From contig NC_014253.1 in assembly GCF_000196655.1 (NCBI RefSeq), forward strand, positions 1,877,423 to 1,941,422: 64,000 nucleotides of DNA, written 5' to 3'. Position 1 is the stretch's first letter. Each line of letters opens with the position of its first letter. Source of the DNA: Methanohalobium evestigatum Z-7303 (lineage in GTDB: Archaea > Halobacteriota > Methanosarcinia > Methanosarcinales > Methanosarcinaceae). The notes under the pieces were generated by a model that worked only from the letters and a program-made list of their open reading frames with translations, did no database searches and was not told the DNA's origin. Below are positions 18,330 through 34,928 of this stretch, in pieces. The translations under genes and the position numbers were made by a program.

Positions 18330-20243
18330 TTAAAACTCAATTATTTCACCAGTTCGTTCGTAGACTGAAATTCCAGATGGAAGATTATCAGCAAAAGATT
18401 TTGATGAAATGCAGGAAATCAATGTCTTTATTTCAGTTAAATCCATTGCTTCTTTTTGAACCAGGAAATCAAATTCTTCTTCACAAATACTAATAAATTT
18501 TAACCCTGAATTTTCAGCCATAGTTCTAAGACCAAAACCCACATCTGCGAATCCTTCCTTGACAGCATTACAAACTGCAAGATGTGTTTTTGCCCCACTG
18601 TTATATCCTGCAAGAGATTCCTTTAAATTATTAAATGACATCCCCATCTTATCAGCAAATTGTTTAAGGTTCAAATCCAGTAAACTTCGTGTCCCTGTGC
18701 CTCTATTACGATTTATCAGTCGTTTGTCCAGTATATCATCAATTCCAGAAATATCACTATTTTGGCGAACGATTAAACCCTGTTCCCTCTTGTAACCTTT
18801 GACAAGTACCACATCAGATAATTTCATTTTCTCGATCATAGATATGTTATAATTACCAGAATCATCCGGCATATTTATTCCTGCAATATCTGAAAAACCT
18901 GTTGATACAGAACTAAAACCTCCAGAAGAACCATTATTCAATACCCTGAATTTAAGCCCTGAAAGTTCTTCAAGGATTTCTATTCCCGGACAATATCCAC
19001 CTGCAAACAACAAATCTGGCTCATCCACATTTCCAAACAGTGTTACATTCACGGATGTACCGGATTCTATATATTCGGTTTCTGCTGAAATTTCTATAAA
19101 TCCGTCTGCATCGGCAAGGGTAGTTATTGCCCCTGACCCTTTATCAGCAGGGTATACTTTCCCACGTACCATTCCCACCGGAAGTAGTTGCTGTCTACCC
19201 TGCGAATTTATACCAGTTCCAAGAACAGCAGTAACTGTCAATTCATCTTTAGTACTGTCAAACGTATCCTGTGAATTATGAATAAGAGGTGCTATGAACT
19301 CATTGAATATAGTTAGTGCTGATGTAGGGTTTCCTGGAAGCCCTATAGTAGGTACACCATTTATCATACCTGCAACAACCGGTTTACCGGGTTTGATATT
19401 AATTCCATGAAACAGGGTTCTACCCTTCTCCTCTATTACCTTATACATAATATCTCCAGCACCTGCAGATGTGCTGCCGGAAGTAAGGACAAGGTTGCAT
19501 TCCTGCACAGCTCTGTTTATTGCATTAAACATTGCCTTTTCTTCATCTTCCACAATTCCATACATTACTGGTGTTGCACCGCACTCTTTAACACTTGCAG
19601 AAAGGGCATAAGAATTTGTATCATAAATCATCCCTTTATCCAGAGGATTTCCAGGAGTAGTCAATTCATTCCCGGTAGAAATAATACCCACTTTTATTGT
19701 ATCAACATCAATATACCGCTTTCCTATCGCTGAAAGAACTCCTATCTCACGTGAACCTATCCGTGTATTTCGACAAAGCACCTGTTCACCCCTCATAATA
19801 TCCGAACCTCTGGACATGATATTCTCACCGGTATGAACAGGTCTGTAAACCGATACCTTACTGTTTGCTCTTTTTGTATCTTCCACTTTCACCACTGCAT
19901 CAGCACCGTAGGGTATTGGTGCTCCTGTAGCTATGGACATCGCTTCACCCTTGTTTAAATAAAAGTCGCCAACAAATCCAGCATCTATTGAACCTGTAAA
20001 ACATAGAGTTAATGGATTTGTTTCTCCTGCCTGATAGGTATCATCTGCACGAACAGCATACCCATCCATTATTGATTTATCAAACGATGGTACATCTATA
20101 CTTGAAACAACATGTTCCGCTAAGGTATATCCCAGTGCTTCCTCCAAAGGAAGAGATTTTGTGGAATGATTAATAGGGATTTGTTTTAACAACCTGTGTG
20201 CTTCATCCACAGGAATCAACGTTCTAAATTCTTTATGTGCCAT
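18330..20243 (-). CDS. moeA: MoeA molybdotransferase fused to a PBP-like ligand domain
   Basis: A 637-aa fusion. Residues about 1-405 are MoeA, which inserts molybdate or tungstate into adenylylated molybdopterin: PSFDKSIMDGYAVRA, ATGAPIPYGADAVVKVE, GIISTGNEL, LTSGSTSAGAGD and GLPGNPTSAL are clear. Residues about 410-637 resemble the periplasmic-binding-protein-like (LysR substrate) domain found in archaeal MoeA fusions, with AGGYCPGIEIL, RNRGTGTRSLLD and VCNAVKEGFADVGFGLR; it may sense molybdate, tungstate or the cofactor. It is next to ilvE on the same strand, and an AOR-type tungstoenzyme lies 1.3 kb away. Confidence 0.93.
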   Translation of the reverse strand: MAHKEFRTLIPVDEAHRLLKQIPINHSTKSLPLEEALGYTLAEHVVSSIDVPSFDKSIMDGYAVRADDTYQAGETNPLTLCFTGSIDAGFVGDFYLNKGEAMSIATGAPIPYGADAVVKVEDTKRANSKVSVYRPVHTGENIMSRGSDIMRGEQVLCRNTRIGSREIGVLSAIGKRYIDVDTIKVGIISTGNELTTPGNPLDKGMIYDTNSYALSASVKECGATPVMYGIVEDEEKAMFNAINRAVQECNLVLTSGSTSAGAGDIMYKVIEEKGRTLFHGINIKPGKPVVAGMINGVPTIGLPGNPTSALTIFNEFIAPLIHNSQDTFDSTKDELTVTAVLGTGINSQGRQQLLPVGMVRGKVYPADKGSGAITTLADADGFIEISAETEYIESGTSVNVTLFGNVDEPDLLFAGGYCPGIEILEELSGLKFRVLNNGSSGGFSSVSTGFSDIAGINMPDDSGNYNISMIEKMKLSDVVLVKGYKREQGLIVRQNSDISGIDDILDKRLINRNRGTGTRSLLDLNLKQFADKMGMSFNNLKESLAGYNSGAKTHLAVCNAVKEGFADVGFGLRTMAENSGLKFISICEEEFDFLVQKEAMDLTEIKTLISCISSKSFADNLPSGISVYERTGEIIEF

Positions 20244-20271
20244 GATTTTTTAAAATAAAATATAAGAGTTT

Positions 20272-21168
20272 TTAAACTTTAACCTCGTTTTCAGGGTATA
20301 TAGGTGTTCCGTTGTTTCTCGTGACTTCTTTAAAAGCCTCAATAACTTTGTTGGTCACCTTTCCGGGTTTTCCGTCACCTATACTTCGTCCATCTATCTG
20401 AGTTATAGGAGCTGCTTCAGCTGCTGTACCTGTTACAAAAATCTCATCTGCAGTATATAAATCGAACAATCCCATGTGCTGTTCATTAACCTCATATCCC
20501 ATGTCCTTTAAAATCTCAATTGAAACCGCCCTTGTAATCCCTTTCAGATTGTTGATGGTCGGTGGTGTGTAAACTTTACCATTATTTACTGCAAATATAT
20601 TGTCTCCTGAGCCTTCAGAAACATATCCATTGTTGTCCAGGAATATAGCCTCATCTCCACCTTTATTATTCGCCTCAACTTTAGCCAGTATATTGTTGAG
20701 ATAATTCATAGATTTTATATTTGGAGAAAGCGCGTCCGGAGCGTTCCTGCGGGTTGTTACCGTTACTGCAGTAAGTCCCACTTCGTAAAGGTCGCCATAG
20801 AGCGCATCCCATTGTTGGGTTATAATGAATACATTTGGTTTTGTACATTTTCTCGGGTCAAGTCCAAGATCTCCGATTCCTCTTGATACAATCGGGCGGA
20901 TATAGGCATCCATAAGGTTGTTCTTTCTCAATGTTTGAAGTATTGCCTCTTTCATCTCATTCTTTGTCAATGGTATGTCCAGTACAATAGCCTTCGCAGA
21001 GTCGTACAGTCTATCAATATGTTCATCCAGTTTGAAAACCCGACCATTGTAGGCTCTGATACCTTCAAAAACACCATCTCCATAGAGGAACCCGTGATCA
21101 TATATCGATGTCGTCGCCTGGGATTTTGGAACAAACTCACCGTTGAAATAAATCAATAACTCGCTCAT
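20272..21168 (-). CDS. ilvE: Branched-chain amino acid aminotransferase
   Basis: A 298-aa fold-type IV PLP enzyme for the last step of Leu, Ile and Val synthesis. Motifs are [50 protein letters not shown], the PLP lysine in [12 protein letters not shown] near residue 160, and [10 protein letters not shown] followed by [10 protein letters not shown]. The ATG at 21168 is preferred because GATGAGG lies 9 bases before it, and the upstream in-frame ATG (21183) is part of that ribosome binding site. It is followed 28 bases later by moeA, likely one transcript. Confidence 0.93.
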
Positions 21169-21355
21169 CTGTTTAAGCCTCATCCAATGCTATTTTTATA
21201 TTATTCATATCACTTTCGATATTTTCAATGTTATATATGTATATTTGTAAACTCAACAGAAGAAAACAATTATTACAGACGGATTAATGGAAGATACAAC
21301 AAAAAACCTTTTATGGATAAACAACAATTGAGTATCTCTGCTATCTGTGGCATAA

Positions 21356-21433
21356 GGTCCCGTGGCTTAGCCAGGATATAGCACCGGGCTTCTAACCCGG
21401 AGGTCGTGGGTTCAAATCCCACCGGGTCCGCCA
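21356..21433 (+). tRNA. tRNA-Arg (UCU) with encoded CCA
   Basis: Plus-strand tRNA with anticodon arm CCGGG-CTTCTAA-CCCGG (anticodon TCT), T arm GTGGG-TTCAAAT-CCCAC, discriminator G73 and encoded CCA at 21431-21433. Acceptor GGTCCCG against CGGGTCC leaves one T3/T70 mismatch and is otherwise paired. Confidence 0.93.
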
Positions 21434-21563
21434 TACACTATTTTTATTGTAAAGTTAGTCTTTGAATAATTGCATTTTTCTTCAACAAATTTAATATGAG
21501 CTACACTTAACTATTATAGGGGTATCTCAATAGTTTTACGTATATCATGGGAGTGTGAATTTA

Positions 21564-23567
21564 TTGAGTGTTTCAGAAGAAAAGAAAAACTACAAGGTTA
21601 GGTCGCTATCCCTAAACCCTTGTGATAAAACCAAAACCGTTAGTTTTGTTGATAAAGATATAGTAGGACCGGTGGACTGGGGATTGAAGAACCATTTTGA
21701 CTACAGAAGTTATGAATACTCAGAATATAGTAAAAACAATGTATTGTGTTTTGGTCTGGGTAAACTTGCTGGAAGCAAACTTCCCGGTACTCAAAGATTA
21801 ATATTTTCCTTCCGTTCACCGCTTTGGAAAGGTTTTTTTGTTTCTGCACTGGGTGGTGCAGCACATGTATTCAAAAGAGTGGGTGTTGATTATGTAACAA
21901 TTGAAGGGAGGTCAGAAAAACCATCAATCATAGTACTAAAAGGCAGAAAAGAAGGATATGTAGATGTAGAGTTTCACGAAATTACAGAAAACAAATTGCT
22001 AAATGTCTACAAAGGATACAATGGTAAAGAAGGTGTTTACGCATTATCTGAATATTTAATAAGCAACTTTTCATCCAAGTATAATAATGATTATAGATGT
22101 ATGGTCGTTGGTCCTGGTTCTTTATATTCCAACATGGGCGCAACATTTTCAGCCACTTTAAAAAACAATGAAATGGTTGTAGGTTCTGAAGAATGGGCTG
22201 GTAGAGGAGGGAGCGGCTCTGTTTTATATCAGGGCCATGGTGTTGCCGGCATTGTTTTTGGAGGAGAAATGGAAAGAATATTCCCTGGTGTAGACCTTTC
22301 AGATTTGGATAACGTCAAGGATATTCTTGACACATATTACAATGAATCATATATAAAGGTCATCAAAAAAAGAACCACCAAATACAGATATAATCCAAAA
22401 ATAGAAAGTGGGGGCACATTTGGTTCCAATATTCATTGTCTGGGTGAATTCATACCCTTAATGAACTGGAAAATGATTTACATGCCCAGAGATGAAAGGA
22501 TAAACATCCATGAAAAATTGTTAGATAAATACTGGAAACCATTCAACAAAGAATCTATGGAACCAAGAAACTGGACTACCTGTGGAGAGCCCTGTCCTGT
22601 GGTATGTAAAAAACATCGTAAAGGACAACATGTTGATTATGAGCCTTACGAAGCAGATGGTCCTCTGGCTGGTTCATATGAGATTCACAAAACGGATGTC
22701 TCGGTAAAAAAAATCGATACTATAGGGATTGATGCCATAGAGTTTGGCAATCTTTCAGCATGGATACTTGAACTGATATCTGAAAGGCTCTTATCATCAA
22801 AAGAACTTGGACTATCCGCTAACCCAAGATTTGACATGAAAAATTTTGATTATGAAAAAGATTCAGAAATAAACGCAAATCTCGTAGCAGAACTTGCCGA
22901 TAATGTAGCTTATGGTAAAACTGAAGTTTGTAAAGTCTTGAGACAGGGAATAAGGAAATCCGCCAGCAAATTTGATGAGATGTTTAAAGAAAGAATTAAA
23001 AATCATAGTTCTGGTTATAATAGCTACAAAGATTTTGCAGTCTATGTGCCCTTCGGCGAAGATGGATGTATCGCTCCAACTATGTACTGGGCAGTTGGAA
23101 ATTTTGTGCCTGTTCCAATACAGGGTAAATATCTCACCTATTATCAGTTTGGATTTTTCGACCCAGAAACTCTGGCAGAAGAATGTTTCAAAAAAGCTGT
23201 ATATGAACTCTATTCTGAAAATACCGGGATGTGTAGATTTCACAGAAATTGGGCAACCGAGGTCATACCATTGCTTTTGAAAAAAGCATGGGATATTGAC
23301 ATAGATAAAAGCCACAATGAAGAAATTATTAAAAAAATGGTAGAATACGATAAAAAAGCCGGGATAAAACCTTCGTTCTGGGACAGCCACAGAGTTTTGG
23401 ATATTGTTGCTTATGGTGCAAAAGAATTCGGCAACATGAAATGGTGGAATGAATTTGAAAATGACAAAATTAATACCGCCAGAAAATACTGGGAGATGTT
23501 TTTAAAATCCTATGAAGACAAACTGGGTATATCATGGGACTATGACTATCAGATTAAACAAAAATAA
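21564..23567 (+). CDS. Aldehyde:ferredoxin oxidoreductase-family tungstoenzyme, divergent
   Basis: About 667 aa. The N-terminal half matches AOR: FGLGKLAGSKLPGTQRLIFSFRSP, EEWAGRGGSGSVLYQGHGVAGIVFGG (pterin-binding region). The cluster Cys in CGEPCPVVCKK (about residues 340-348) are spaced Cx3Cx3C, not the usual Cx2Cx3C, and a distal Cys lies in TGMCRFHRNWATE. Family members oxidise aldehydes to acids and reduce ferredoxin with a tungsten bis-pterin; the substrate here is unknown. The start is uncertain: TTG at 21564 is favoured by GGGAG 10 bases upstream, while a GTG at 21555 would add three residues. It stands alone near moeA. Confidence 0.85.
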   Translation: MSVSEEKKNYKVRSLSLNPCDKTKTVSFVDKDIVGPVDWGLKNHFDYRSYEYSEYSKNNVLCFGLGKLAGSKLPGTQRLIFSFRSPLWKGFFVSALGGAAHVFKRVGVDYVTIEGRSEKPSIIVLKGRKEGYVDVEFHEITENKLLNVYKGYNGKEGVYALSEYLISNFSSKYNNDYRCMVVGPGSLYSNMGATFSATLKNNEMVVGSEEWAGRGGSGSVLYQGHGVAGIVFGGEMERIFPGVDLSDLDNVKDILDTYYNESYIKVIKKRTTKYRYNPKIESGGTFGSNIHCLGEFIPLMNWKMIYMPRDERINIHEKLLDKYWKPFNKESMEPRNWTTCGEPCPVVCKKHRKGQHVDYEPYEADGPLAGSYEIHKTDVSVKKIDTIGIDAIEFGNLSAWILELISERLLSSKELGLSANPRFDMKNFDYEKDSEINANLVAELADNVAYGKTEVCKVLRQGIRKSASKFDEMFKERIKNHSSGYNSYKDFAVYVPFGEDGCIAPTMYWAVGNFVPVPIQGKYLTYYQFGFFDPETLAEECFKKAVYELYSENTGMCRFHRNWATEVIPLLLKKAWDIDIDKSHNEEIIKKMVEYDKKAGIKPSFWDSHRVLDIVAYGAKEFGNMKWWNEFENDKINTARKYWEMFLKSYEDKLGISWDYDYQIKQK

Positions 23568-23579
23568 TTTTAATAAAAA

Positions 23580-23600
23580 GGATGGTTGAATTCACCATCC
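23580..23600. terminator. Bidirectional hairpin between convergent genes
   Basis: GGATGGT at 23580-23586 pairs with ACCATCC at 23594-23600. It lies 12 bases after the AOR-like gene stop and includes the last codons of the convergent small gene, so it could end both transcripts. Confidence 0.4.
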
Positions 23601-23828
23601 CCCTGTTGTAGGATTGTCTATATCGTATTTTTCAGATATTGATTGAGCTATTGAGAAGGCTAAATCCTTTTTTTCCTCTTCAAACACTTCTTCATCTCCT
23701 GTAATTCTGTTAATGAGGCAAGAAGTTCCATCTGTATAGGATATCAATTCTGCTACGGGCTTACATCCAAAACGGTGTATTTTGTTTATTTTTTTGTTAT
23801 AAGGGACCTGTACTTGTTCAGAGAGCAT
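23592..23828 (-). CDS. Small conserved-looking protein, unknown function
   Basis: A 78-aa soluble protein: short basic N-terminus (NKKINKIHRFGCKPVAELISYTDGTSCLINRITGDEEVFEEEKKD) and an acidic helical C-terminal part ending TTGGW. I do not recognise it. The ATG at 23828 has GGTGA directly upstream; two tandem in-frame GTG codons (23837, 23834) precede it. Its C-terminal codons overlap the terminator hairpin shared with the AOR-like gene. Confidence 0.5.
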   Translation of the reverse strand: MLSEQVQVPYNKKINKIHRFGCKPVAELISYTDGTSCLINRITGDEEVFEEEKKDLAFSIAQSISEKYDIDNPTTGGW

Positions 23829-24047
23829 TTTCACCACTTTTCACTATTTTTATTGAGAGTAACCATAGCTCCAAACAAGTAATGATATATTAATTTTTTC
23901 ATAGACTTTAATTGAACAATTAAAGACCAGTAAAAAGCCATAAAGGAAGGATACTGACTCAATAACCCAGATTATTGAAAAAAGAGGTTGAAAATACTGT
24001 AAATATGAACAATTACAAAAATTAATAAAGTAAAAATGGGATGGATT

Positions 24048-24968
24048 TCATTTGCCAAGCCATTTATTTACTTTTTCAGGATTGTTGTCAATCCATTTTT
24101 GAGCTGCATCTGCAGGACTCATACCATTTTCTATATCAAGCATCATGGATTCTATTTCTGATATACCCATACTGGAATCTGATGCCAGTTTATAAATTTT
24201 TGGATAATCCTCTTTGAAACCTTCTCTTGCTATCATGGTTATATCATCGCTTTCACCATAAACACTCTTTGGATCTTCAAGATATTTCAAATCTACACCA
24301 TACTCCTGTTTCATACGGCTAAAAGACCAGTGAGGATTCCAGAGGGTTACAACAATCCATTCTTCATCTTTTATAGCATCACCCAATTCAGTAGACATTG
24401 CAACTGTACTGCTTGATTGCAATTTATAATCAAGGTTGTATTCAGAAATTGCATTTTCAGTCTGTTTCATAATGCCTGCACCTGGCTCTATTCCCTGTAT
24501 CTGACCATCGAATTTGTCCCTGTTTTCTTTTAAACCATTAATAGTATCCACCGGCACATAGGACGGAACTACAAGCCCTGTTCTAGCTCCCGATGAAAGG
24601 TTATTTACAATAATCAGGTCTTCACTGTATCTATTCCAATAATTTCCCTGTGTGCCTGGCAACCATGCACTTACATAAAAATCAAGGTCTTTATCAGACA
24701 AACCCTGATATACACCACCGAGGTCACCATATACCAGTTCCACATTATAACCTTCAGATTCCAGTATATGTTTGAACATGTTGGATGTTGCCCGACCATC
24801 ATCCCAAGTAGTTGAGCCAAGTTTTATCGTTTTGGATTTATCAGAGGTGGGTTCTTTATTGTTTGGTGTTTGCTCACTATTTTGCTGCATACATCCGGAT
24901 GAAGCAAGGGAAAATATGAGCAACAGACATATTATAAATACAGATAATTTATTTTTGTTTGTTTTCAT
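24048..24968 (-). CDS. Glycine betaine-type ABC substrate-binding lipoprotein (ProX/OpuAC)
   Basis: A 306-aa secreted binding protein. It has a signal sequence and lipobox LASSGC (Cys about residue 26), a Lys/Ser/Pro-rich linker, then an OpuAC domain starting TIKLGSTTWDDGRATSNMFKHILESEGY with FYVSAWLPGTQGNYW and VTLWNPHWSFSRMKQEYGVDLKYLEDP, the aromatic-rich pattern that cages quaternary amines. No permease or ATPase gene is adjacent, so it must work with a transporter elsewhere. Together with the BCCT carrier it marks osmolyte import. Confidence 0.9.
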   Translation of the reverse strand: MKTNKNKLSVFIICLLLIFSLASSGCMQQNSEQTPNNKEPTSDKSKTIKLGSTTWDDGRATSNMFKHILESEGYNVELVYGDLGGVYQGLSDKDLDFYVSAWLPGTQGNYWNRYSEDLIIVNNLSSGARTGLVVPSYVPVDTINGLKENRDKFDGQIQGIEPGAGIMKQTENAISEYNLDYKLQSSSTVAMSTELGDAIKDEEWIVVTLWNPHWSFSRMKQEYGVDLKYLEDPKSVYGESDDITMIAREGFKEDYPKIYKLASDSSMGISEIESMMLDIENGMSPADAAQKWIDNNPEKVNKWLGK

Positions 24969-25205
24969 TTATATCACTAAATTTAATATCAAACGTTTTA
25001 TCGATTTCAGCTTCATAAAGCATCATCAATTCTATATTGGACAATTGGTTATAAACGATTTAACGTTAATCTTTACTATTATAAAACATTATTTATAAAT
25101 ACATTTAAGTATACGAAACTACAGGTTAAATTTTTTACATAACAATGGAAAACTATATTATTGTCAGCCTCAATAATTTCAAAGAAAAAAGGATACAAAT
25201 CTAAA

Positions 25206-25640
25206 ATGTCTGACAGAAGAGCTTCAATTACTGATGATTCAATTATCAACCGATGGATGAACCTTGAAATAGGTAAAATAAACAACAGCATTGTAACTGC
25301 AAGGAAAACTCTTTACCAGCTACTTGAAGAAGATAATCCATCTTCAAAAACAAAAGATGGAAGAGAGTATTTATTTAAAAAAGAAATCATTAACAAACTC
25401 GAAAATAGGCTTCCAGAACATATACAAACGAGGTTAAAACTCCCGATATTATTTTTCTTTGACCTGCAGATAGATGATAGCTGTTATATAAATGATAAAA
25501 CAGCTTTTGAAGCCCTGCAAATTCTTGGTGAAATCGGATATAAAAGAGAATTTCGAAACAACCGTCACTGGATGGGAAAAGCTATTGCGTATTCCATCAA
25601 GAAAAAATATCCAAGTGCTGTCCAGATTGTAATGACATAA
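25206..25640 (+). CDS. DUF61/UPF0216 family archaeal protein
   Basis: A 144-aa protein of a family confined to archaea with unknown function. The signature ILFFFDLQIDDSCYINDKTAFEALQILGEIGYKREFRNNRHWMGKAIAYSIKKKYPSAVQIVM fills the C-terminal half. The start is set at the ATG at 25206 (MSDRRAS), because the upstream frame begins at a TTG and adds only basic residues. It precedes a small membrane protein gene by 53 bases. Confidence 0.85.
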   Translation: MSDRRASITDDSIINRWMNLEIGKINNSIVTARKTLYQLLEEDNPSSKTKDGREYLFKKEIINKLENRLPEHIQTRLKLPILFFFDLQIDDSCYINDKTAFEALQILGEIGYKREFRNNRHWMGKAIAYSIKKKYPSAVQIVMT

Positions 25641-25693
25641 AACCTTTATCAGAGCGGTTAAATCCAACTACAGCTGCAGATATGTGAGAATCC

Positions 25694-26062
25694 ATGAATA
25701 AAAACGGAATGTATTATGAAAGTGAATATTTTGAGAAAAAAACAAATCAATTAAATCTTTCACCCTTTATGGTAATGGTTTTCATCTATTTCTGTCTTTT
25801 ACTGGGGTTGGTATCTTCGGTTTCCGTATTTTTAATTGAATATTTCAACCTTAATTATCCACTTTCATGGGAGGTTAAATTATATCCCCTGTTTCTGACA
25901 GTAATGTTTTATGTGCTGAGAAAAGAATTTCAGGGTATAAAGGATGAAAACGATATCGATGAATCAAAAATTATCCTACTGTTGGGTGCTTTAGGTTCAG
26001 TCATAATGGTGATAGTTGCATTAGTCCGTGTATGGGCTCTTGGGAACGGAATAAGGATATAA
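25694..26062 (+). CDS. Small membrane protein, unknown function
   Basis: A 122-aa protein with three predicted membrane segments: about 25-48 (FMVMVFIYFCLLLGLVSSVSVFLI), about 60-74 and about 93-114 (IILLLGALGSVIMVIVALVRVWAL). A charged loop (RKEFQGIKDENDIDESK) joins the last two. I do not recognise a family. It follows the DUF61 gene on the same strand, and a strong hairpin 18 bases after the stop ends the unit. Confidence 0.55.
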   Translation: MNKNGMYYESEYFEKKTNQLNLSPFMVMVFIYFCLLLGLVSSVSVFLIEYFNLNYPLSWEVKLYPLFLTVMFYVLRKEFQGIKDENDIDESKIILLLGALGSVIMVIVALVRVWALGNGIRI

Positions 26063-26080
26063 TTATTACAATTTTAAAAA

Positions 26081-26109
26081 TAACCCTGCTACTCAATGTA
26101 GCAGGGTTA
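26081..26109 (+). terminator. 11-bp stem hairpin downstream of the membrane protein gene
   Basis: TAACCCTGCTA at 26081-26091 pairs perfectly with TAGCAGGGTTA at 26099-26109 around a 7-base loop. There is no long T-run, so termination is inferred from position. Confidence 0.45.
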
Positions 26110-26241
26110 CATGGGGAAAACTACACCGATGCACAAAGGTGAGATAAAGCACTTGGAAATAGACAAAGCTTCTAAGAGATTTTTACATTCACCGCCAATA
26201 TATCCATATACTTCAACCAATTTAAAAGGAATTATTTGAGT

Positions 26242-26273
26242 ATTAAATATTACCCGTATAGGTAATATTTAAT
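26242..26273. promoter_or_regulatory. 32-bp perfect dyad (operator 1, core TTACC-N6-GGTAA)
   Basis: ATTAAATATTACC at 26242-26254 is the exact reverse complement of GGTAATATTTAAT at 26261-26273, separated by CGTATA. The core TTACCCGTATAGGTAA matches two further sites at 26387-26402 and 27331-27346. Confidence 0.6.
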
Positions 26274-26386
26274 GAGAGTATAACATAAAACATAATATTA
26301 AACTATAATGGACTTTTTATATTACACATTCGATTGCCTAACAGATAACAAATTTTATTACAGATTAATATTGTTTTTAAAGTATA

Positions 26387-26402
26387 TTACCCATTTAGGT
26401 AA
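26387..26402. promoter_or_regulatory. Operator 2, core TTACC-N6-GGTAA
   Basis: TTACCCATTTAGGTAA, 16 bp, same core and spacing as the site at 26250-26265, 238 bases before the ArsR-type regulator start. Confidence 0.55.
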
Positions 26403-26639
26403 CGATTGTAATGCAAATAAATAGAGATATATTAAGTAATGACTTTTAACTTGGATGAAGAAAATTAACTTGAATAAATATAAACTCCACTTGTATACCA
26501 ACTAATTGAATAATATTACAATTAATTTAGACTAAGCAATATACTTGCAGCTGTTTATTGTTAAAATAAAAGCTCATGATTGCTCTGGGAAATAAATTTT
26601 GATTAATATCAATCTTAAAATAATTAAAAGTTGAATATT

Positions 26640-27176
26640 ATGAGTGAGACCAATAAAAATAAAAAAATATTCAAAGCTTTGGGCTGCAATACCCGACTGA
26701 ATATACTCAAACTACTGGCAGATAATGAAATGCATATTACAGGTATAGCCAATGAGTTAGGCATATCTGTTCCAGTAACTGCAAAACATATAAGAATATT
26801 AGAAAATGCAGAACTTGTTGAACGTCAAAAGTTTGGTAATTCACATATATTAAAAGTTAATACAGAAAACATCTATACCATTTTGGATAAATTCGCACCA
26901 ACCAAAGATATAGAAGTTGAAAGAGGAACTAACCTCCTTGATATACTCAAAAAGGTCTCATCAGTTGAAGTAAAAAAGATAGGAGATAGAGAAGCTGTCG
27001 TATCTACAGACGGAGATGAGGGTTTTTTCGTTTATGAAGTCAACGGGAAAATGTCAGATAAAACCGTTCATGAATGTACTTTTGAAGATGATGCTATTGT
27101 AGAATGGAAAAAGCTGGAACCTATTACCAGGTTGAAACTCGATATTAACATTAAAGACCATGAAGATAATAGTTAA
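26640..27176 (+). CDS. ArsR-type regulator with C-terminal DUF4430-like domain
   Basis: A 178-aa protein. Residues about 8-80 form an ArsR-type winged helix (IFKALGCNTRLNILKLLADNEMHITGIANELGISVPVTAKHIRILENAELVERQKFGNSHILKV). Residues about 92-160 resemble DUF4430, the transcobalamin C-terminal-like fold: GTNLLDILKKV, then GFFVYEVNGKMSDKTVHECTFEDDAIVEWKK. I know of no described regulator of this architecture, so the second assignment is by pattern only. Position upstream of a metal-binding surface protein and cbiMQO suggests sensing of cobalt, nickel or a corrinoid. The ATG at 26640 is used; an upstream TTG at 26631 is possible. Confidence 0.75.
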   Translation: MSETNKNKKIFKALGCNTRLNILKLLADNEMHITGIANELGISVPVTAKHIRILENAELVERQKFGNSHILKVNTENIYTILDKFAPTKDIEVERGTNLLDILKKVSSVEVKKIGDREAVVSTDGDEGFFVYEVNGKMSDKTVHECTFEDDAIVEWKKLEPITRLKLDINIKDHEDNS

Positions 27177-27329
27177 ACTATACTCATGGTTGCTGATAAA
27201 AATTTAAAATTTTACTTTTACTATATTATTTTTAACATTTTTAAATTAATCAATTTTACTTGATTTAATTAGTTCAAATAATAATCCCAATTTTTTATTG
27301 TTCCCTTGTTTCAGGATTTATTACTTCTT

Positions 27330-27347
27330 GTTAACCATATGGTTAAC
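27330..27347. promoter_or_regulatory. 18-bp perfect palindrome (operator 3) before the His-rich protein gene
   Basis: GTTAACCATATGGTTAAC is fully self-complementary and lies 92 bases before the start of the surface protein gene. Its central 16 bases have the same length and TTA-CC/GG-TAA half sites as operators 1 and 2. Confidence 0.6.
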
Positions 27348-27439
27348 GTACGTTTGTCAAATCCAAATTGATTTAATTTATATTTACGTCATGGTTTCAT
27401 ACCGAATTTTACTAAATTAATAGATGAAAGGTGATTGTA

Positions 27440-28642
27440 ATGAATAAATTCAATATATTAGGAATAATTTTAGTATCAACTTTAATTGTGTTTGCTTTAA
27501 GTGTACCAGTCTCCGCTCATGAAGGACATTCACATGATAACGTCTCTCAATCACTGGTTGAGGTTGAAGATCATGCAAATGAGATAATAATTGTGGCAGA
27601 AACTATCCACACTGAGTCCGCAAAGATTGCTGATGACAAATCGTTAAATGCTGACCTGAGAACAAAAGCAGAAACTGTTCACAAATCTTCTCACGAGATG
27701 GAACACATTGCAAAAGAAATCATCAATCATGTCGAAACTCTTGAGAGTATTGAACACCCGGATGAAAACAAGGATAAGGTAAAAACTGAAATTAGTGAAA
27801 TCAACGAACACATCGATGAATTAGCCAATCTCCTGAACTCAAAATCAGATGCTGTTCATGAAGTGGAAGAAAATACACCACAATCACACAAAGAATATGC
27901 TGAAAACATTCACCATGAGTTCCATGAACTCGGTGATATCGGAAGCCACCTTAAAGAGCATGCTTCTGAAATTGAAAGCGATGTGATTGGAACTGGAGAA
28001 GAATATGACCACGAACATGAAGAAGGTTCTGCATTAGCAGAAGTTGAAGAACATGCAAATGAGATTATAAGTGTGGCAGGAACCATCCACACTAAGTCCG
28101 CAAAGGTTGCTGATGACAAATCGTTAAATGATGACCTGAGAGAAAAAGCAGAGACAGTTCACAAATCTTCTCACGAGATGGAACACATTGCAAAAGAAAT
28201 CATCAGTCATGTCGAAACTCTTGAAGGAATTGAACACCCGGATGAAAACAAGGATAAGGTAAAAACTGAAATTAGCGAAATCAACGAACACATCGATGAA
28301 TTAGCCAATCTCCTGAACTCAAAATCAGATGCTGTTCATGAAGTGGAAGAAAATACACCGCAATCACACAAAGAATATGCTAAAGACATTCACCATGAGT
28401 TCCATGAACTCGGTGATATCGGAAGCCACCTTAAAGAGCATGCTTCTGAAATTGAAAGCGATGTGATTGGAACTGGAGAAGAACATGACCACGAACATGA
28501 AGAAGGTTCATCATCCGAAAGCGAATCCAGTTCTAAATCTTCAGAATCTGAACAAGAAGGAGCTGTTGAGAGTCCAGGATTTGGTTCATTGTTAGCAATA
28601 TCCGGAATGTTTGCAGTTGTCTATCTTGTAAAAAGAAAATGA
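27440..28642 (+). CDS. His-rich, internally duplicated surface protein with PGF-CTERM-like anchor
   Basis: A 400-aa exported protein. A signal peptide ends at about VPVSA, followed by HEGHSHD. Two almost identical 160-residue repeats follow (about 39-198 and 199-358), each helical, rich in His and Glu, with paired motifs such as HKSSHEMEHIAKEII and HHEFHELGDIGSHLKEH and ending DHEHEEGS. A Ser/Glu spacer leads to SPGFGSLLAISGMFAVVYLVKRK, which looks like a PGF-CTERM anchor processed by an archaeosortase. Position upstream of cbiM suggests it captures Ni or Co outside the cell. GGTGA 5 bases upstream supports the ATG at 27440. Confidence 0.75.
   Translation: MNKFNILGIILVSTLIVFALSVPVSAHEGHSHDNVSQSLVEVEDHANEIIIVAETIHTESAKIADDKSLNADLRTKAETVHKSSHEMEHIAKEIINHVETLESIEHPDENKDKVKTEISEINEHIDELANLLNSKSDAVHEVEENTPQSHKEYAENIHHEFHELGDIGSHLKEHASEIESDVIGTGEEYDHEHEEGSALAEVEEHANEIISVAGTIHTKSAKVADDKSLNDDLREKAETVHKSSHEMEHIAKEIISHVETLEGIEHPDENKDKVKTEISEINEHIDELANLLNSKSDAVHEVEENTPQSHKEYAKDIHHEFHELGDIGSHLKEHASEIESDVIGTGEEHDHEHEEGSSSESESSSKSSESEQEGAVESPGFGSLLAISGMFAVVYLVKRK
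27554..28513 (+). repeat. Two tandem 480-bp coding repeats
   Basis: Units 27554-28033 and 28034-28513 are nearly identical at DNA level, with only scattered substitutions. This implies a recent in-frame duplication, or gene conversion between the halves, within the surface protein gene. Confidence 0.85.
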
Positions 28643-28735
28643 ATAATAAAATAAAGCATGGGTGAATATTTTAAACCACCTATGCAATTTTAACTTATTC
28701 ATTAAATAATAAGACTATCTGGAGGATTGTAAACA

Positions 28736-29398
28736 ATGCACATATCAGATGGAGTCCTTTCTGCTACTGTTGTAACAGGTGGATGGACGATAACAATTGT
28801 CTTAGCGTTTCTAACCCTCTGGTGGATGAATCAAGAAACTGATATCACAGAAGAGATTCCCAAATTTTCTGTAATGACAGCTGCTTTCTTTGTGGCGTCC
28901 TTGATTCATCTCCCGATCGGCCCCACAAGCGTTCATATGATTTTCAATGGTCTTGTAGGTGTCGTTCTTGGTCCACTTGCATATCTGTCATTGGTGGTGG
29001 GTCTCATATTACAGGCGTTCCTGTTCCAGCATGGAGGAGTGACCACTATTGGTGTAAACGCAATGAATATTGGTATTCCTGCTCTTTTGAGTTACTATGC
29101 ATTTAAGAAAGGTTATGATTTTGGTATTTCTGAAAAAATAATGGGTGCTTTCAGTGGCGGAGCAGCTATTTTTATGACCGTTATATTGCTTTCTATAACT
29201 CTATTAACAACAGGTCAAGAATTTATCGGTGTTGCACAGGTATCTGCAGCAGCACATGCACCGCTAATGGTAGTTGAAGCAATAATCACAGGGTCTGTTG
29301 TGACATATCTCTCTAAAGTTAAACCTGAATTGTTGCCTATAAAAATTAATAAAAATGAAAAATCAATGGAGGCATCTAAATATGGTACTGAATTTTAA
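28736..29398 (+). CDS. cbiM: ECF cobalt/nickel transporter substrate-binding subunit CbiM
   Basis: A 220-aa membrane protein. The N-terminal MHISDGVL is the CbiM/NikM metal site, where the amine and His2 bind Co or Ni, and LIHLPIGPTSVHMIFNGLVGVVLGPLAYLS and FQHGGVTTIGVNAMNIGIPALLSYY are conserved. About 6-7 membrane segments. Whether it carries Co or Ni cannot be told from sequence. TGGAGG precedes the ATG. Its 3' end overlaps the next gene by 17 bases, so coupling with the accessory subunit is likely. Confidence 0.93.
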   Translation: MHISDGVLSATVVTGGWTITIVLAFLTLWWMNQETDITEEIPKFSVMTAAFFVASLIHLPIGPTSVHMIFNGLVGVVLGPLAYLSLVVGLILQAFLFQHGGVTTIGVNAMNIGIPALLSYYAFKKGYDFGISEKIMGAFSGGAAIFMTVILLSITLLTTGQEFIGVAQVSAAAHAPLMVVEAIITGSVVTYLSKVKPELLPIKINKNEKSMEASKYGTEF

Positions 29399-29885
29399 CC
29401 GAATTTTACTGGTAATCTCCATTTTAACTATGGTTTTCGTTCCTGCTACATCTGCACACAGCGTGCATATGGACGTTATCGAAAAATCAACTGATAAAAT
29501 CAAGGTCAAAGCCTATTATGGTGGTGGCGACCCTATGAAAGATGTTGAAGTAAATGTCTATTTAATTACTGAAAATGATGAAGAACCCTATATAGAGGAC
29601 AAGTCAACAGATGAAAAAGGAATGTATTCTTTTGAACCTAAACAGGGACACGAGGTTTACAAAGTAGTGGCATCTGATTTTGGGCACCAAGTTGAAAAAA
29701 AGGTTATTTTGGAGTCTCAATCATCATCCTCATCTAATGGGTCATCCAATAATAGTGATACTGATGGACTGCCTATGCCTGCAAGAATAGTATCTGGTTT
29801 TGGATACATTGCAGGTATTGCAGGTATTGGGATGATGGCAAATGCCAGAAAAATAAAGAAAAAATATGAAAACGAAAATAAATAA
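29382..29885 (+). CDS. NikL/CbiN-like exported accessory protein of the ECF importer
   Basis: A 167-aa protein with a signal peptide (ILLVISILTMVFVPATSA), a beta-rich domain starting HSVHMDVIEKSTDKIKVKAYYGGGDPMKDVEVNVYLI, then a Ser/Asn-rich linker, and a C-terminal membrane segment followed by a basic tail. It occupies the position of CbiN or NikL (DUF4198-type) in other importers, and the His near the mature N-terminus (AHSVH) could bind metal. The ATG at 29382 is preferred because GGAGG lies 9 bases upstream within cbiM; the ATG at 29355 gives no signal peptide start. Function by position, moderate certainty. Confidence 0.65.
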   Translation: MVLNFNRILLVISILTMVFVPATSAHSVHMDVIEKSTDKIKVKAYYGGGDPMKDVEVNVYLITENDEEPYIEDKSTDEKGMYSFEPKQGHEVYKVVASDFGHQVEKKVILESQSSSSSNGSSNNSDTDGLPMPARIVSGFGYIAGIAGIGMMANARKIKKKYENENK

Positions 29886-29909
29886 ATGAACAGAGAACTA
29901 AAATAAACA

Positions 29910-30668
29910 ATGAACTATCCAAGGATTGACGCATATTCAGAAATCGAATCAGTAATACACAATTTCGACCCCAGAGCAAAGATTATAACATTTACAGTCC
30001 TCATATTTTCCTTTGCTTTTATCGAAAGTTTGACAGTAGCTATGTTTGCTGTTTTGTTTTCAGTAAGTCTGATATTTATTTCCAAATTACCTATTGAATT
30101 TGTTTACGCACGCTTAAAATATCCAATAATATTCATATTTGCTATTTTTGTGATAATGTGCTTTACAGTAGAAGGTAACATAATAATAGATTCATATTTT
30201 GTAAGTGTTACTCTGGAAGGGTTAAAAATTGGGTTACTTATATTTCTCAGAGCTACTGCTGCTTTAATTATTGCATTTTTAATGCTTGCCACTAACAGGT
30301 TTGATACCGTTATAAAAGCTTTATATATGTTGAAATTGCCGAATGCAGTTGTTCAGATGATTGTATTTTCTTATCGATATATTTTTGTTTTGGTGGATGA
30401 ATTTCAAAATATGAAAAAATCAATGTCTGCAAAAGGTTTTGAAATTAAAGCCAACAGATATGGATTATCTACTATAGGAAACCTGATAGGAATGTTACTT
30501 GTTAAAAGTTATGAAAGAGGGGAAAGAGTACATAAGTCGATGATTTCAAAGGGTTATGAAGGGAAACCAAGAATGGATACAAATTACAATTTAATGTTTT
30601 CTGACTATGTGTTAACGATTTTTATGATGATCTTCGCGTTTGGCGTACATATTTATCCGGTGATATAA
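29910..30668 (+). CDS. cbiQ: ECF transporter transmembrane subunit CbiQ
   Basis: A 252-aa coupling subunit with five or so membrane segments. SVIHNFDPRAKIITF near the N-terminus and the coupling-helix motifs around KKSMSAKGFEIK and RGERVHKSMISKGYEGKPRM are those that touch the ATPase. Its stop overlaps the cbiO start by one base (TAATG), so the two are translated together. Confidence 0.9.
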   Translation: MNYPRIDAYSEIESVIHNFDPRAKIITFTVLIFSFAFIESLTVAMFAVLFSVSLIFISKLPIEFVYARLKYPIIFIFAIFVIMCFTVEGNIIIDSYFVSVTLEGLKIGLLIFLRATAALIIAFLMLATNRFDTVIKALYMLKLPNAVVQMIVFSYRYIFVLVDEFQNMKKSMSAKGFEIKANRYGLSTIGNLIGMLLVKSYERGERVHKSMISKGYEGKPRMDTNYNLMFSDYVLTIFMMIFAFGVHIYPVI

Positions 30669-31591
30669 TGAAAAGAACTGCAGTATCCATAAAAAATTTG
30701 GATTACACATATCCAAACAGTAAAAAAGTCTTAGATAATGTTAACATGGAGGTTTTTGAAGGAGAAAAAATTACAATCATGGGTCCAAATGGTGCTGGTA
30801 AAACCACTCTTTTGCTACATCTAAACGGTACATTAAAAACATCAAATAGCGATAATGTTTATATTTTTGAACAGGCAATCAGTTCAATGAATATAAAAGA
30901 CCGGATACAATATGTAGGAATTTTATTCGAAGACCCTGATGACCAGCTATTCATGCCGACAGTTTATGATGATGTTGCTTTTGGGCCTTATAATATGGGT
31001 CTGGACAAAAAAGAAGTTGACAAAAGAGTTAAAAAATCCATGACCAGAGTAGGACTTCAAGGATTTGAAAATGAAGTCCCCCAACATTTGAGCACTGGTC
31101 AAAAAAAGAAAGTTGCATTGGCTGCAGTTATTTCAATGGAACCTAAAATACTTGTTTTGGACGAACCAACTGCTAATCTTGATCCAAAAAGCAAATCAGA
31201 GATCATATCATTTATCAAGGAACTTAATGAAAAAGAAGGTATTACTACAATAATAGCTACTCATGATGTGAATACAATATCATATCTTACAGATAGAGTA
31301 TATGTTCTTAATGAAAAGATAGTAGCCTCAGGAACACCACATGATATATTTTCAAATCCTGAATTATTGAAACAATTTAACTTGGAAGCACCTGATCCAC
31401 TTAAAATTTTCCGAATGCTGGAGTGTTTTGGGTATGATAGTAAAAATCATCCTTTATCAATAAATGAAGCTGCGGAAAACCTTATAAACGCCATGCAAGA
31501 AAACGGTGACGTCATGAACCTCCAAATGGATAAAGATGCGTATGAAAACATAAAACAACTGGTAAATCTTTATACTTACCACCCTTTCTGA
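30668..31591 (+). CDS. cbiO: ECF transporter ATPase CbiO
   Basis: A 307-aa ABC ATPase that powers Co/Ni uptake. Walker A GPNGAGKTTL near residue 40, the signature LSTGQKKKVALAAV near 140, and Walker B ILVLDEPTANLD near 160 are all intact, followed by the His-loop IIATHD. The C-terminal extension of about 60 residues is rather long (LECFGYDSKNHPLSINEAAENLI...). The gene ends just before a solo tnpB element, but no truncation is evident. Confidence 0.93.
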   Translation: MKRTAVSIKNLDYTYPNSKKVLDNVNMEVFEGEKITIMGPNGAGKTTLLLHLNGTLKTSNSDNVYIFEQAISSMNIKDRIQYVGILFEDPDDQLFMPTVYDDVAFGPYNMGLDKKEVDKRVKKSMTRVGLQGFENEVPQHLSTGQKKKVALAAVISMEPKILVLDEPTANLDPKSKSEIISFIKELNEKEGITTIIATHDVNTISYLTDRVYVLNEKIVASGTPHDIFSNPELLKQFNLEAPDPLKIFRMLECFGYDSKNHPLSINEAAENLINAMQENGDVMNLQMDKDAYENIKQLVNLYTYHPF

Positions 31592-31637
31592 GATAAGTAT
31601 TCACGAGAAATGGAGAAGGAAGCCAACAGTTTCAACT

Positions 31638-32860
31638 TTTGGAGGAATGCGTCCAAACTTAAACAAACCATTGATGACCAGCAGTAACATCTCTGATTCA
31701 TAATTATTTTATATGTATCTAACATATTTGTAGATAGCATGTACCTGACGTTGAAAGTAAAACTGAATCCCGATAGAAAACAAAGCAATAAACTATTGAC
31801 AACTATGGAAAAGTTCAATGAGGCCTGCAACTATGCTTCTGAGACTGCATGGCACAACAAGAAATTTGGTAAAACCGGGATTCAGAAATTGACTTATTAT
31901 GACATTAGGCAAAAATTCGCTCTGTCTGCTCAATTGACTGTCAGGGCAATCGGTAAAGTAGCTGAAAGCTACAGCAACGACAGAAAAACCATGCACAAAT
32001 TCAATAGAAGAGGTGCAGTGGTCTACGACCAGAGAGTTCTGTCGTTCAAGGGAAAAGATATGGTTTCCATACTTACTCTGAATGGGCGTGAGAAGATAAG
32101 TATATCTTACGGTGATTATAGACCTTTTGACATAAGTAAAATCCGAGGTCAAACAGACCTGATTTACGAAGATAATAATTTTTACCTGATGCTTGTGATG
32201 GAAGTGGGTGAAAACGAGGTTGAATATAACGATGATGTCATGGGAGTAGACCTTGGCGTAGTTAATATAGCAACCACTTCTAATAACGAAGTTTACAAAG
32301 GCACAAAAGCTGATGAGATACGAGAGCGATATACCAGTCTAAAATCGAGATTGCAGTCAGCTGGAACATGGTCCGCCAAGGAGCACCTCAAGAAATTATC
32401 CAAAAAGGAACGCCGGTTCAAACGTGACTTGAATCACCGGGTTGCCAAACAACTGGTTAAACGCGCTAAAGACACGTCCCGGGCTATTGCATTGGAAAAC
32501 CTCAACGGTTTTCGTCCGGAGGCTACGGTTACTAAAGCGCAGAAAGATAGGTTGGGTAAATGGGCGTTCTCTGAATTGACCGATTTCATATTATACAAAT
32601 CAAAACTTGAAGGAGTACCTGTTATAATAATTAACCCGATGTATACTTCGCAGCAATGTTCTGAGTGCGGGCATATCAATAAGAGCAACCGCCAGAAACA
32701 GGCTAACTTCAGGTGTAAGACATGCGGTCATAGAGAGAACGCCGACTACAATGCTTCGAAGAACATTGCACACAGGGGAGCTGTCAGCCTTCCTGATGTC
32801 CTCCGCTTAACTTCTATTAGTTAAGAGATGGAAGGACAAGCTAACCGCTTTAGCGGTTAG
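31638..32860 (+). mobile_element. Solo tnpB insertion element (IS200/IS605 type)
   Basis: A tnpB gene without tnpA, with a terminal hairpin on the right: CTAACCGC at 32841-32848 and GCGGTTAG at 32853-32860 around a TTTA loop. On the left, TTTGGA/TCCAAA at 31638-31657 is a weaker candidate. Exact ends are not defined. Confidence 0.6.
31739..32824 (+). CDS. tnpB: TnpB RNA-guided nuclease, intact
   Basis: A 361-aa TnpB with all key parts: RuvC-I Asp in MGVDLGVVN (about 192), RuvC-II Glu in IALENLNGFRPE (about 260), a CSECGH...CKTCGH zinc finger (about 310-335) and RuvC-III Asp in ENADYNASKN (about 338). TnpB proteins use an RNA overlapping the 3' end of their gene to cut DNA at matching sites and help the element persist. 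No tnpA is adjacent, so mobility would depend on one in trans. It differs in sequence from the other three TnpB copies in the window, which lack this zinc finger type or are broken. Confidence 0.9.
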   Translation: MYLTLKVKLNPDRKQSNKLLTTMEKFNEACNYASETAWHNKKFGKTGIQKLTYYDIRQKFALSAQLTVRAIGKVAESYSNDRKTMHKFNRRGAVVYDQRVLSFKGKDMVSILTLNGREKISISYGDYRPFDISKIRGQTDLIYEDNNFYLMLVMEVGENEVEYNDDVMGVDLGVVNIATTSNNEVYKGTKADEIRERYTSLKSRLQSAGTWSAKEHLKKLSKKERRFKRDLNHRVAKQLVKRAKDTSRAIALENLNGFRPEATVTKAQKDRLGKWAFSELTDFILYKSKLEGVPVIIINPMYTSQQCSECGHINKSNRQKQANFRCKTCGHRENADYNASKNIAHRGAVSLPDVLRLTSIS

Positions 32861-33084
32861 TAGCTGACAAAACGCAATATATCAATAAATATTGTTGGGT
32901 GTATATATTGTAAAAATCAATATAATAATATAATGAAATATAATAACTTGTATTATTCTCATTTTATAGTCGATAACTCAATATTTGTTGCTTATAATTA
33001 TTGAAATATATTGCAAATTAATAACAAATAATCTGTGTTCAACTATAGTTGCTATAGATTTTTTATTCAAAAGAGTAATAGTAT

Positions 33085-33954
33085 ATGTATATGAATAGTG
33101 GGAATACTCGATATCTACCTGATATATTATTCCTTTTTGTTTTTCTACCACTTTTTTTAACTGTAGTATATTTTACTTCATTAAATAGTGCATTTATATT
33201 ACATACAGATGATTATACTATTTTTACAATATACGCCACAAATTTCGCTCATTTTGATTATAACCATTTCATGAGCAACCTTTTGTCGTATATGGTTATA
33301 ATATTGTTAATTTTTATTTTTTTCAGAATATTTGGATTATGTGAAAGAAAAAATTTTTATTTAAACCTGTTAACCATTTTTATTATTGCACCGTTTGGAA
33401 TTTCTCTGTTCAGTCTCCTTATTTATGACATGGATAAAATATTGGGATTTTCAGGTATCGTATCATCTCTATTAGGCTATTTTACAGCCTCATTTGTGAC
33501 CTATACATATAAAAAAGCAGATATAAATTTGAACCGTACAATTTTGTTCTTGTTCCCTGTGATTTTTTTTAATTTATCTATATTATCACTTATTAGGTAT
33601 GGATTAATAGAAAATACAGGACTTGATTTGTTACTGATTTTTATCCTTTCAATTTACCTTCTTGATGAAGCTAAAATTGATATCATCAAAATATATCATT
33701 CGTTTAAAAATAATAATCTAGTAAATAGTAACTTTAAAAATATACCATTTTACTGGTATGCAATAGCTACTGTATTATTTTTCTTTACATTTACAATAGG
33801 TTTGTGGTTAATTCTCTTCCCTGAAAAAGTCCTAAATAATGGTAACATAACAAACATACAGGGGCATTATATAGGATTCATGATTGGAACATTAACACCT
33901 ATCTTAACCTATAACCTAAAAGTTTACATAAAAAAATTAACTCAATTAAATTAA
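33085..33954 (+). CDS. Rhomboid-like intramembrane serine protease
   Basis: A 289-aa protein with about 7-8 membrane segments. The rhomboid landmarks are present: HFDYNHFMSNLLSY (the loop/helix HxxxHxxxN), GFSGIVSSLLGYF with the catalytic Ser in GxSG (about residue 126), and GHYIGFMIGTL with the catalytic His (about 263). The long stretch between Ser and His carries extra helices and a charged loop, unlike compact rhomboids. Substrate unknown. Two ATGs (33085, 33091) are possible starts. Confidence 0.75.
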   Translation: MYMNSGNTRYLPDILFLFVFLPLFLTVVYFTSLNSAFILHTDDYTIFTIYATNFAHFDYNHFMSNLLSYMVIILLIFIFFRIFGLCERKNFYLNLLTIFIIAPFGISLFSLLIYDMDKILGFSGIVSSLLGYFTASFVTYTYKKADINLNRTILFLFPVIFFNLSILSLIRYGLIENTGLDLLLIFILSIYLLDEAKIDIIKIYHSFKNNNLVNSNFKNIPFYWYAIATVLFFFTFTIGLWLILFPEKVLNNGNITNIQGHYIGFMIGTLTPILTYNLKVYIKKLTQLN

Positions 33955-34010
33955 ACTAAACCATCTCATAATAAAGATATTGATCACCCTGAAACTAGCA
34001 AACTTGCTTA

Positions 34011-34024
34011 GTAGTCCCGGGCGG
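34011..34024 (-). repeat. 14-base copy of the tRNA-Gln 3' end
   Basis: GTAGTCCCGGGCGG is identical to 16962-16975, which spans the last T-stem bases, acceptor 3' strand, A73 and first C of the CCA of tRNA-Gln, in the same orientation. No other tRNA part follows. It may be the scar of an element that used a tRNA 3' end as attachment site, or a rearrangement remnant. Confidence 0.45.
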
Positions 34025-34117
34025 TTTTTCCTAAGTAAAAAATTCTCAAAAAAGATGTACTATATATGATTAAAGAGTTAATAGTAATATTTGAGGGATT
34101 ATAAAAAAATTCAAAGA

Positions 34118-34192
34118 TGCTCCGGATGGGATTTGAACCCATGTTTTCGGCTCGAAAGGCCGAAATGATTGGCCCGACTACACTACCGGAGC
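34118..34192 (-). tRNA. tRNA-Glu (UUC)
   Basis: A 75-nt minus-strand tRNA with acceptor GCTCCGG/CCGGAGC, anticodon arm TCGGC-CTTTCGA-GCCGA (anticodon TTC), T arm ATGGG-TTCAAAT-CCCAT and discriminator A73. CCA is not encoded. Confidence 0.95.
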
Positions 34193-34271
34193 AAATTGGA
34201 TTGTTTCGGTGCGGGAATACACAATTACCACGCACCTATATATAATTTTCGATTTTTACTGGAATTGAGAT

Positions 34272-34631
34272 TCAACATTGTGCTTTTGACTGGGATGTTT
34301 CATCTTCTTCATCCAGTTTCACAATCCATTCGGTCAAATATTCACAATATTCTGGTTCACATGCCAGCCTGCATCCTGCACAAGGTGAGAACATACTTCC
34401 TGACAAAAGCATCTCATAGGATGGTTTTGGTTCTTCAGCACTTTTTAAAAGATAAGTTCTTGAACCCTTTGAAGTCGCTGATTCACGGATTATTAATCCT
34501 TTTTTCAACAGTTTTGACACAATCCTTGAACACTTACGGCTGTCTATATTCATCTCTTTCCAGAGCTGGTTCTGATATATCCCCTCTGGATGTTCTTTTA
34601 TTACTTTTAAAGCCAGTTCTTCAGGTTCCAT
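34272..34631 (-). CDS. Winged-helix regulator with C-terminal four-Cys cluster
   Basis: A 119-aa protein. Residues about 4-65 form a MarR/Lrp-like winged helix (EELALKVIKEHPEGIYQNQLWKEMNIDSRKCSRIVSKLLKKGLIIRE...). The C-terminal part has CAGCRLACEPEYC, a Cx2Cx3Cx4C cluster fit for Fe-S or zinc, which suggests redox or metal sensing. It is followed by an Sm protein gene on the same strand after a 21-base gap... that gene lies upstream in transcription order. I recognise no named family. Confidence 0.75.
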   Translation of the reverse strand: MEPEELALKVIKEHPEGIYQNQLWKEMNIDSRKCSRIVSKLLKKGLIIRESATSKGSRTYLLKSAEEPKPSYEMLLSGSMFSPCAGCRLACEPEYCEYLTEWIVKLDEEDETSQSKAQC

Positions 34632-34652
34632 AATATCCTGTATCTTTTTTTA

Positions 34653-34877
34653 TTAATCTTCAACAGGTGCCAGTAAAACGATGTTGTTACCTCTTAATAC
34701 TACTGAACCGAGTGATCTGAGGCGCTCACCATTTGCTATTTCAACAGATTCCACAAGATGTAGATTGAGATAATCATCCACACTTTCAAGAACGCCTTCA
34801 AGTTGATGGAGGTCGCCTTTCATTTCAACTTGTACCTTAGATCCAAGTAATTTGTGAACTTTTTTATTTGGGAACAA
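34653..34877 (-). CDS. Archaeal Sm-like (LSm) RNA-binding protein
   Basis: A 74-aa Sm fold. Sm1 motif is VHKLLGSKVQVEMKGDLHQLEGVLESVDDYLNLHLVESVE and Sm2 is LGSVVLRGNNIVLLAP, both close to consensus. Such proteins form heptameric rings that bind U-rich RNA and small RNAs. Its C-terminus precedes the start of the Cys-cluster regulator by 21 bases, so the two are probably one operon. Confidence 0.93.
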   Translation of the reverse strand: MFPNKKVHKLLGSKVQVEMKGDLHQLEGVLESVDDYLNLHLVESVEIANGERLRSLGSVVLRGNNIVLLAPVED

Positions 34878-34928
34878 TTTATAACCTCACTTTTATTGAT
34901 TAATGTTGTTTAAAGATAATATTATTAT

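Follow-up and report, generated by a model that had tools for sequence, protein, structure and literature searches.

A probable regulator of cobalt and corrinoid acquisition with an ArsR winged helix and a transcobalamin-like tail, and its candidate operator, in the Methanosarcinaceae

The window analyzed here, a 64-kb stretch of archaeal DNA, holds upstream of a cobalt/nickel importer a gene whose product joins an ArsR-type DNA-binding domain to a tail resembling the beta domain of animal B12 carriers, which raises the question of which genes such a protein controls and to which ligand it responds. Burroughs et al. (2007; PMC1796856) described an ArsR-SLBB fusion from Methanosarcina (gi:72395507) and predicted a one-component regulator for B12, its precursors, or another ligand. 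Going by its description in the available part of that paper, the fusion has the same architecture (an ArsR-like HTH plus a transcobalamin-like beta-grasp) and comes from the same archaeal family, and the window protein, also archaeal and intracellular, likewise unites the two domains in a single chain; the prediction given there is short and comes without an operator, a regulon, or a neighborhood for the fusion (PMC1796856). The available part of a comparative study on how nickel, cobalt, and B12 are used makes no mention of an ArsR-DUF4430 regulator (PMC2667541), and in the searchable literature, in which subscription papers are thinly covered, we found no report of an operator or regulon of such a protein and no described regulator of the cobalt/B12 supply of methylotrophic methanogens. 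MM2441, an ArsR regulator of M. mazei, was considered as the same protein and set apart by its description, which gives it a different context as the second gene of an operon with MM2440. The architecture itself has been known since 2007; what is new is its wide distribution, its recurrent cobalt/corrinoid neighborhood, and an 18-bp candidate operator.

The regulator gene lies at 26640–27176 on the plus strand and is translated without interruption into 178 residues, with an alternative TTG start upstream at 26631; the ortholog in the sister species (G029) is 98% identical. Residues 17–64 (26688–26831, plus strand) form an ArsR winged helix-turn-helix, as identified by alignment and by HTH_5/ArsR (PF01022), which matches residues 17–61 at E 2.4e-12 (46.9 bits against a cut-off of 22), and NF033788 matches residues 9–81 at 58.7 bits (cut-off 55). 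ArsR structures ranked at the top of the fold comparison, placing the protein in the ArsR/SmtB family, and S43, V46, H50, L54, and E55 of the winged helix are invariant across 76 homologs. The AlphaFold models of this study were built from seven sequences, and the full-length model is of moderate confidence (pLDDT 77.9, pTM 0.52). The winged helix is shared with the cobalt and nickel sensors of the ArsR/SmtB family (NmtR, KmtR, CzrA, and CblA), with fold matches to CzrA, SrnR, and ArsR, but the window regulator has neither a CxC nor a DxH...HxxH site and carries an extra, sensor-like tail. These classical metal motifs (alpha3 CxC, alpha5 DxH...HxxH) are absent from the homolog alignments altogether, which bears on metal sensing and not on ArsR membership, some proteins of the ArsR family being without them. 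Because conserved classical metal sites are missing, sensing most likely takes place in the tail.

The tail (residues 86–173; 26895–27158, plus strand) has a DUF4430/transcobalamin-like beta-grasp by profile, tail model, and fold comparison. DUF4430 (PF14478) is its best Pfam match, spanning residues 96–157 and profile positions 1–69 of 72; the window protein alone scored 16.6–18.4 bits (E 0.011 at 16.6), under the gathering score of 23.8, and the profile was matched by 12 of 15 full-length homologs (best E 1e-5) and by 11 of 12 homolog tails (best E 1.4e-8). Across the family, the profile matches thus make the predicted DUF4430 identity of the tail a firm assignment. HMMER found no match to the tail profile among PDB sequences, and Foldseek gave no match under E 0.001 for the tail-only AlphaFold model, itself of moderate confidence (pLDDT 79.6), so that the transcobalamin relatives were separated only by structural re-alignment. 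With VIA-align, haptocorrin, transcobalamin, and intrinsic factor filled the ten best places (Z 7.3–7.8; 76 residues aligned at an rmsd of 2.8–3.0 Å), followed by 3u7z (Z 7.3), a DUF4430-like structure titled as a putative metal binding protein, and then by unrelated folds from 5.4 down. The beta domains of these three animal carriers share with the regulator tail both the fold and a hairpin inserted after the helix, here seen as a predicted helix at 99–106 and strands at 109–114 and 117–122. They differ from it in their setting: the animal carriers cover B12 with an alpha/alpha toroid, which the regulator tail lacks, and this tail sits inside the cell, joined to a DNA-binding domain. The matches also include 5np4, whose PDB title, the beta domain of human transcobalamin bound to cyanocobalamin, implies that a beta domain of this type can hold B12 without a helical partner domain. 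To our knowledge, DUF4430 is present also in proteins that are not known to bind B12. The sequence-only reading had proposed a C-terminal half of the DUF4430/transcobalamin type, and the profile and fold comparisons agree with it in assigning the tail to this family and not to an unrelated one.

That reading had also placed a cobalt/nickel importer beside the regulator, which we recovered in full at 28736–31591, with all genes on the plus strand: cbiM, the S-component of a cobalt/nickel ECF importer (28736–29398; PF01891 E 1.2e-50, NF004905 above cut-off), a NikL-like subunit (29355–29885; NF058648 E 4.8e-15, below cut-off), the T-component cbiQ (29910–30668; TIGR02454 above cut-off), and a cbiO-type ECF ATPase (30668–31591; PF00005, TIGR04520 E 6.8e-74). 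The cargo of NikL-type operons may be nickel instead of cobalt. The first gene past the operator described below separates the regulator from cbiM and encodes a secreted, His-rich surface protein of the PGF-CTERM kind that is internally duplicated in tandem (27440–28642, plus strand; PF18204); this protein may be a metal-binding partner of the importer at the cell surface. The internally duplicated window protein has 403 residues and its counterpart in the sister species 243, and similar His-rich proteins precede cbiM in other genera (loci L236, L239, L242, L257, and L260). An IS605-type OrfB/TnpB-like gene directly follows cbiO (31739–32824), and a strong hairpin, possibly a terminator (TAACCCTGCTACTCAATGTAGCAGGGTTA, 26081–26109), follows the open reading frame at 25694–26062. 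A cobalamin riboswitch, the RNA element that sets bacterial cobalt and corrinoid uptake genes by B12 supply, had no match in window positions 20000–36000; here, a protein would fill that role.

The regulator family is present in 110 of 112 genomes searched in the window's taxonomic family at E 0.001 or better, a count that includes a few genomes in which the match is weak and confined to the HTH. Of 393 genomes in a phylum-wide profile search at E 1e-15, 110 have it, among them relatives of the same order and a further family, f9. The nearest titled records belong to Methanohalobium (98% identical), Methanosalsum, and Methanoperedens. A paralog sits in the window's own genome (C1:2197834; 69% identical), and phylogenetically the window copy clusters with those of g1 and g12, next to this own-genus paralog. 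The g10 copies near cbiMNQO (L064, L069, L072, and L095) stem from a separate duplication; because they form a nested branch of their own, siting near cobalt importers arose at least twice.

A cobalt or corrinoid gene lies within 7 kb at 42 of 83 regulator loci, although these are not independent of one another, their genomes being related. The recurrent neighbors are cbiMNQO, cbiM-nikL-cbiQO, CobN with DUF2162, CbiZ, FecCD-type importers, and CbtA, and profile matches confirmed CobN (1014 bits), CbiN, NicO, CbiZ, CbiD, CbtA, FecCD, DUF2162, and DUF2149 among them. The arrangements vary by lineage: cbiQ/N/M with adjoining cbiE/D at the g10 paralogs, CbiZ about 1.1 kb upstream of most canonical copies in g10 and g11, a DUF2162-MotA/ExbB-DUF2149-CobN cluster divergent from the regulator in g4, g5, g13, and g14, FecCD-type importers with CbiZ at L087 and L120, and in Methanoperedens a divergent CbtA, once with NicO. 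Other loci have a different setting. In g3, g7, g9, and g10–g12, radical-SAM/HHH, DUF4130, and MutS-like genes come after the canonical copy (for example L045, L083, L048, and L053), a linkage that the cobalt/corrinoid reading leaves unexplained; an AP-endonuclease-like TIM barrel often precedes the canonical copy at these loci. In f9 the commonest neighbor is an ADP-ribosylglycohydrolase, with the regulator most often just after it, and six f9 loci (L125, L127, L128, L129, L134, and L136) have no cobalt gene near the regulator. Because about half of the loci lack a cobalt/corrinoid gene within 7 kb, and in view of the f9 and canonical contexts, the family may have other roles too.

The window has three copies of an 18-bp palindrome of the form GTTAYC-N6-GRTAAC. 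Two candidate operators lie upstream of the regulator, ATTACCCGTATAGGTAAT at 26249–26266, with its arms kept and its center changed in the sister species, and ATTACCCATTTAGGTAAC at 26386–26403. The third, before the His-rich gene and the cbiM operon, is a perfect palindrome (GTTAACCATATGGTTAAC, 27330–27347) whose 16-bp core is identical in the sister species, followed after 29 bp by a TATA-like box (TTTATATT, 27377–27384, plus strand) that is also kept there. Elsewhere in the window's own genome, TTANCCATWTGGNTAA recurs exactly at one further place, so that its two loci are the window's cbiM operon and a second operon, cbiM-cbiN-cbiQ, each of which it precedes. In Methanosarcina-type genomes, the interval between the regulator and DUF2162 holds GTTATC-N6-GATAAC with conserved arms and variable centers, the strict pattern being found two to seven times per genome, and sites are also present at the regulator start in Methanoperedens, between it and the divergent CbtA, and at the regulator gene of one f9 genome. 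Counting exact palindromes in the upstream regions of all regulators yielded no one word common to them, and a first degenerate pattern within 300 bp was mildly enriched (3 against 0.5 expected); the motif became clear with regions of up to 450 bp, neighboring operons, and variable centers. One recurrent pattern match, GTTATCTTTACCGGTAAC, was set aside, being inside a coding sequence. In Methanosarcina genomes, nrdD (class III ribonucleotide reductase) and a RadB-like gene flank another conserved palindrome, GTTATCAGATCTGATAAC, whose center is unlike that of the operator (L167, L176, G074, G081, G083, G103, and G104); should the regulator bind there as well, a B12-independent reductase might come under the control of B12 supply.

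A matrix was built from 12 regulator-adjoining sites, including the two upstream of the window regulator and zero cbiM promoters, and was scanned at a threshold of 12 bits over the 1.6 kb before 60 cbiM genes in 27 regulator-bearing genomes. These regions stem from related genomes, and 15 of the 60 reached at least 12 bits, where shuffles gave an expectation of 1.33. The 19 relatives without a detected regulator contributed 30 cbiM upstream regions, none of which reached it; these relatives belong to other families, so that lineage and regulator presence are only partly separable. Many second cbiM copies have no good operator site. Sites cluster 95–155 bp ahead of cbiM, a distance that grows to about 1.36 kb when the His-rich gene stands in between. 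In the whole window, only three places reached at least 12 bits, two of them training sites and the third the palindrome before the His-rich gene (16.7 bits). A TATA-like box follows the palindrome by 11–29 bp in 21 of 22 promoters examined, and in 13 of the 22, from several genera, a third half-site, TTACC, stands at exactly +5, a spacing which, judged from these promoter sequences, suggests that more than one dimer may be bound.

The domains and fold, the conserved neighborhood, the operator motif, and the link of this motif to the regulator and to cbiM were computed directly, and our best reading of them as a whole, which we think likely, is a one-component regulator of cobalt/corrinoid acquisition that acts through the operator and senses corrinoid with its tail. 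Of its parts, we are most confident in the regulation of cobalt/corrinoid genes, which is very probable; the earlier suggestion of corrinoid or metal sensing gains independent backing from the cross-genus neighborhoods and from the common operator before cobalt-uptake genes. As a rule, ArsR proteins sit on palindromes as winged-helix dimers, and we infer both dimerization and binding of this palindrome by the regulator. The winged helix, presumably dimeric, would bind GTTAYC-N6-GRTAAC some 11–29 bp ahead of the TATA-like box in cbiM-type importer operons and in the DUF2162-CobN cluster, and, in the window's genus, also before the regulator's own gene. The predicted targets are importers and salvage genes, whereas those of the ArsR/SmtB cobalt and nickel sensors are exporters. 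The transcobalamin-like tail would be the sensor, and its likeliest ligand a cobalamin-type cofactor or precursor. When corrinoid is short, the ligand-free protein would sit on the DNA and activate the uptake genes; when corrinoid is bound, it would be released. A position upstream of TATA is usual for archaeal activators, and activation by the ligand-free form is the likeliest logic because the sites lie there, so that we somewhat favor an activator.

The same protein could instead repress the uptake genes with a corrinoid as co-repressor, a possibility that we take seriously while leaning mildly against it. Most ArsR proteins repress, two palindromes stand before the regulator's own gene, and the third half-site, past the palindrome and ahead of the TATA-like box, is so placed that a second dimer there could block TBP/TFB; nevertheless, the palindrome itself lies upstream of the TATA-like box, in the usual archaeal activator place, in nearly all of the promoters. 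For the ligand, our preference for a corrinoid over free metal is modest. That the same regulator and regulon answer to free Co(II) or Ni(II), with the DUF4430 tail binding metal or merely dimerizing, is unlikely: most of the targets import metal, NikL- and NicO-type proteins among them, 3u7z is among the fold matches, and the window clade has cysteines at residues 16 and 146, but C16 occurs in 7 and C146 in 36 of the 76 homologs, the classical metal motifs are absent, and neighboring corrinoid-salvage genes (CbiZ and FecCD-type) suit a corrinoid better. It is very unlikely that the palindrome belongs to another cobalt/nickel regulator while the window protein controls, for example, the radical-SAM/MutS-like genes, for although canonical copies beside those genes in g7, g9, g10, and g12 have no operator match, the motif directly adjoins the regulator gene in Methanosarcina-type genomes, in Methanoperedens, in the window's genus, and in one f9 genome, and it is absent before cbiM in relatives without the regulator.

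The most specific form of the cobalt/corrinoid reading, a corrinoid-sensing, ligand-free activator of transcobalamin fold that is the protein counterpart of the B12 riboswitch, with an operator common to the Methanosarcinaceae and Methanoperedens, is put forward tentatively. Methylotrophic methanogens rely heavily on corrinoid methyltransferases, and the regulator, if this is true, would explain how their cobalt and B12 supply is controlled and would assign a role to the fusions of ArsR and DUF4430 that were predicted in 2007. The operator opens the idea to direct testing in laboratory strains of Methanosarcina, and the fold of the animal B12 carriers would then also be that of an archaeal gene switch.
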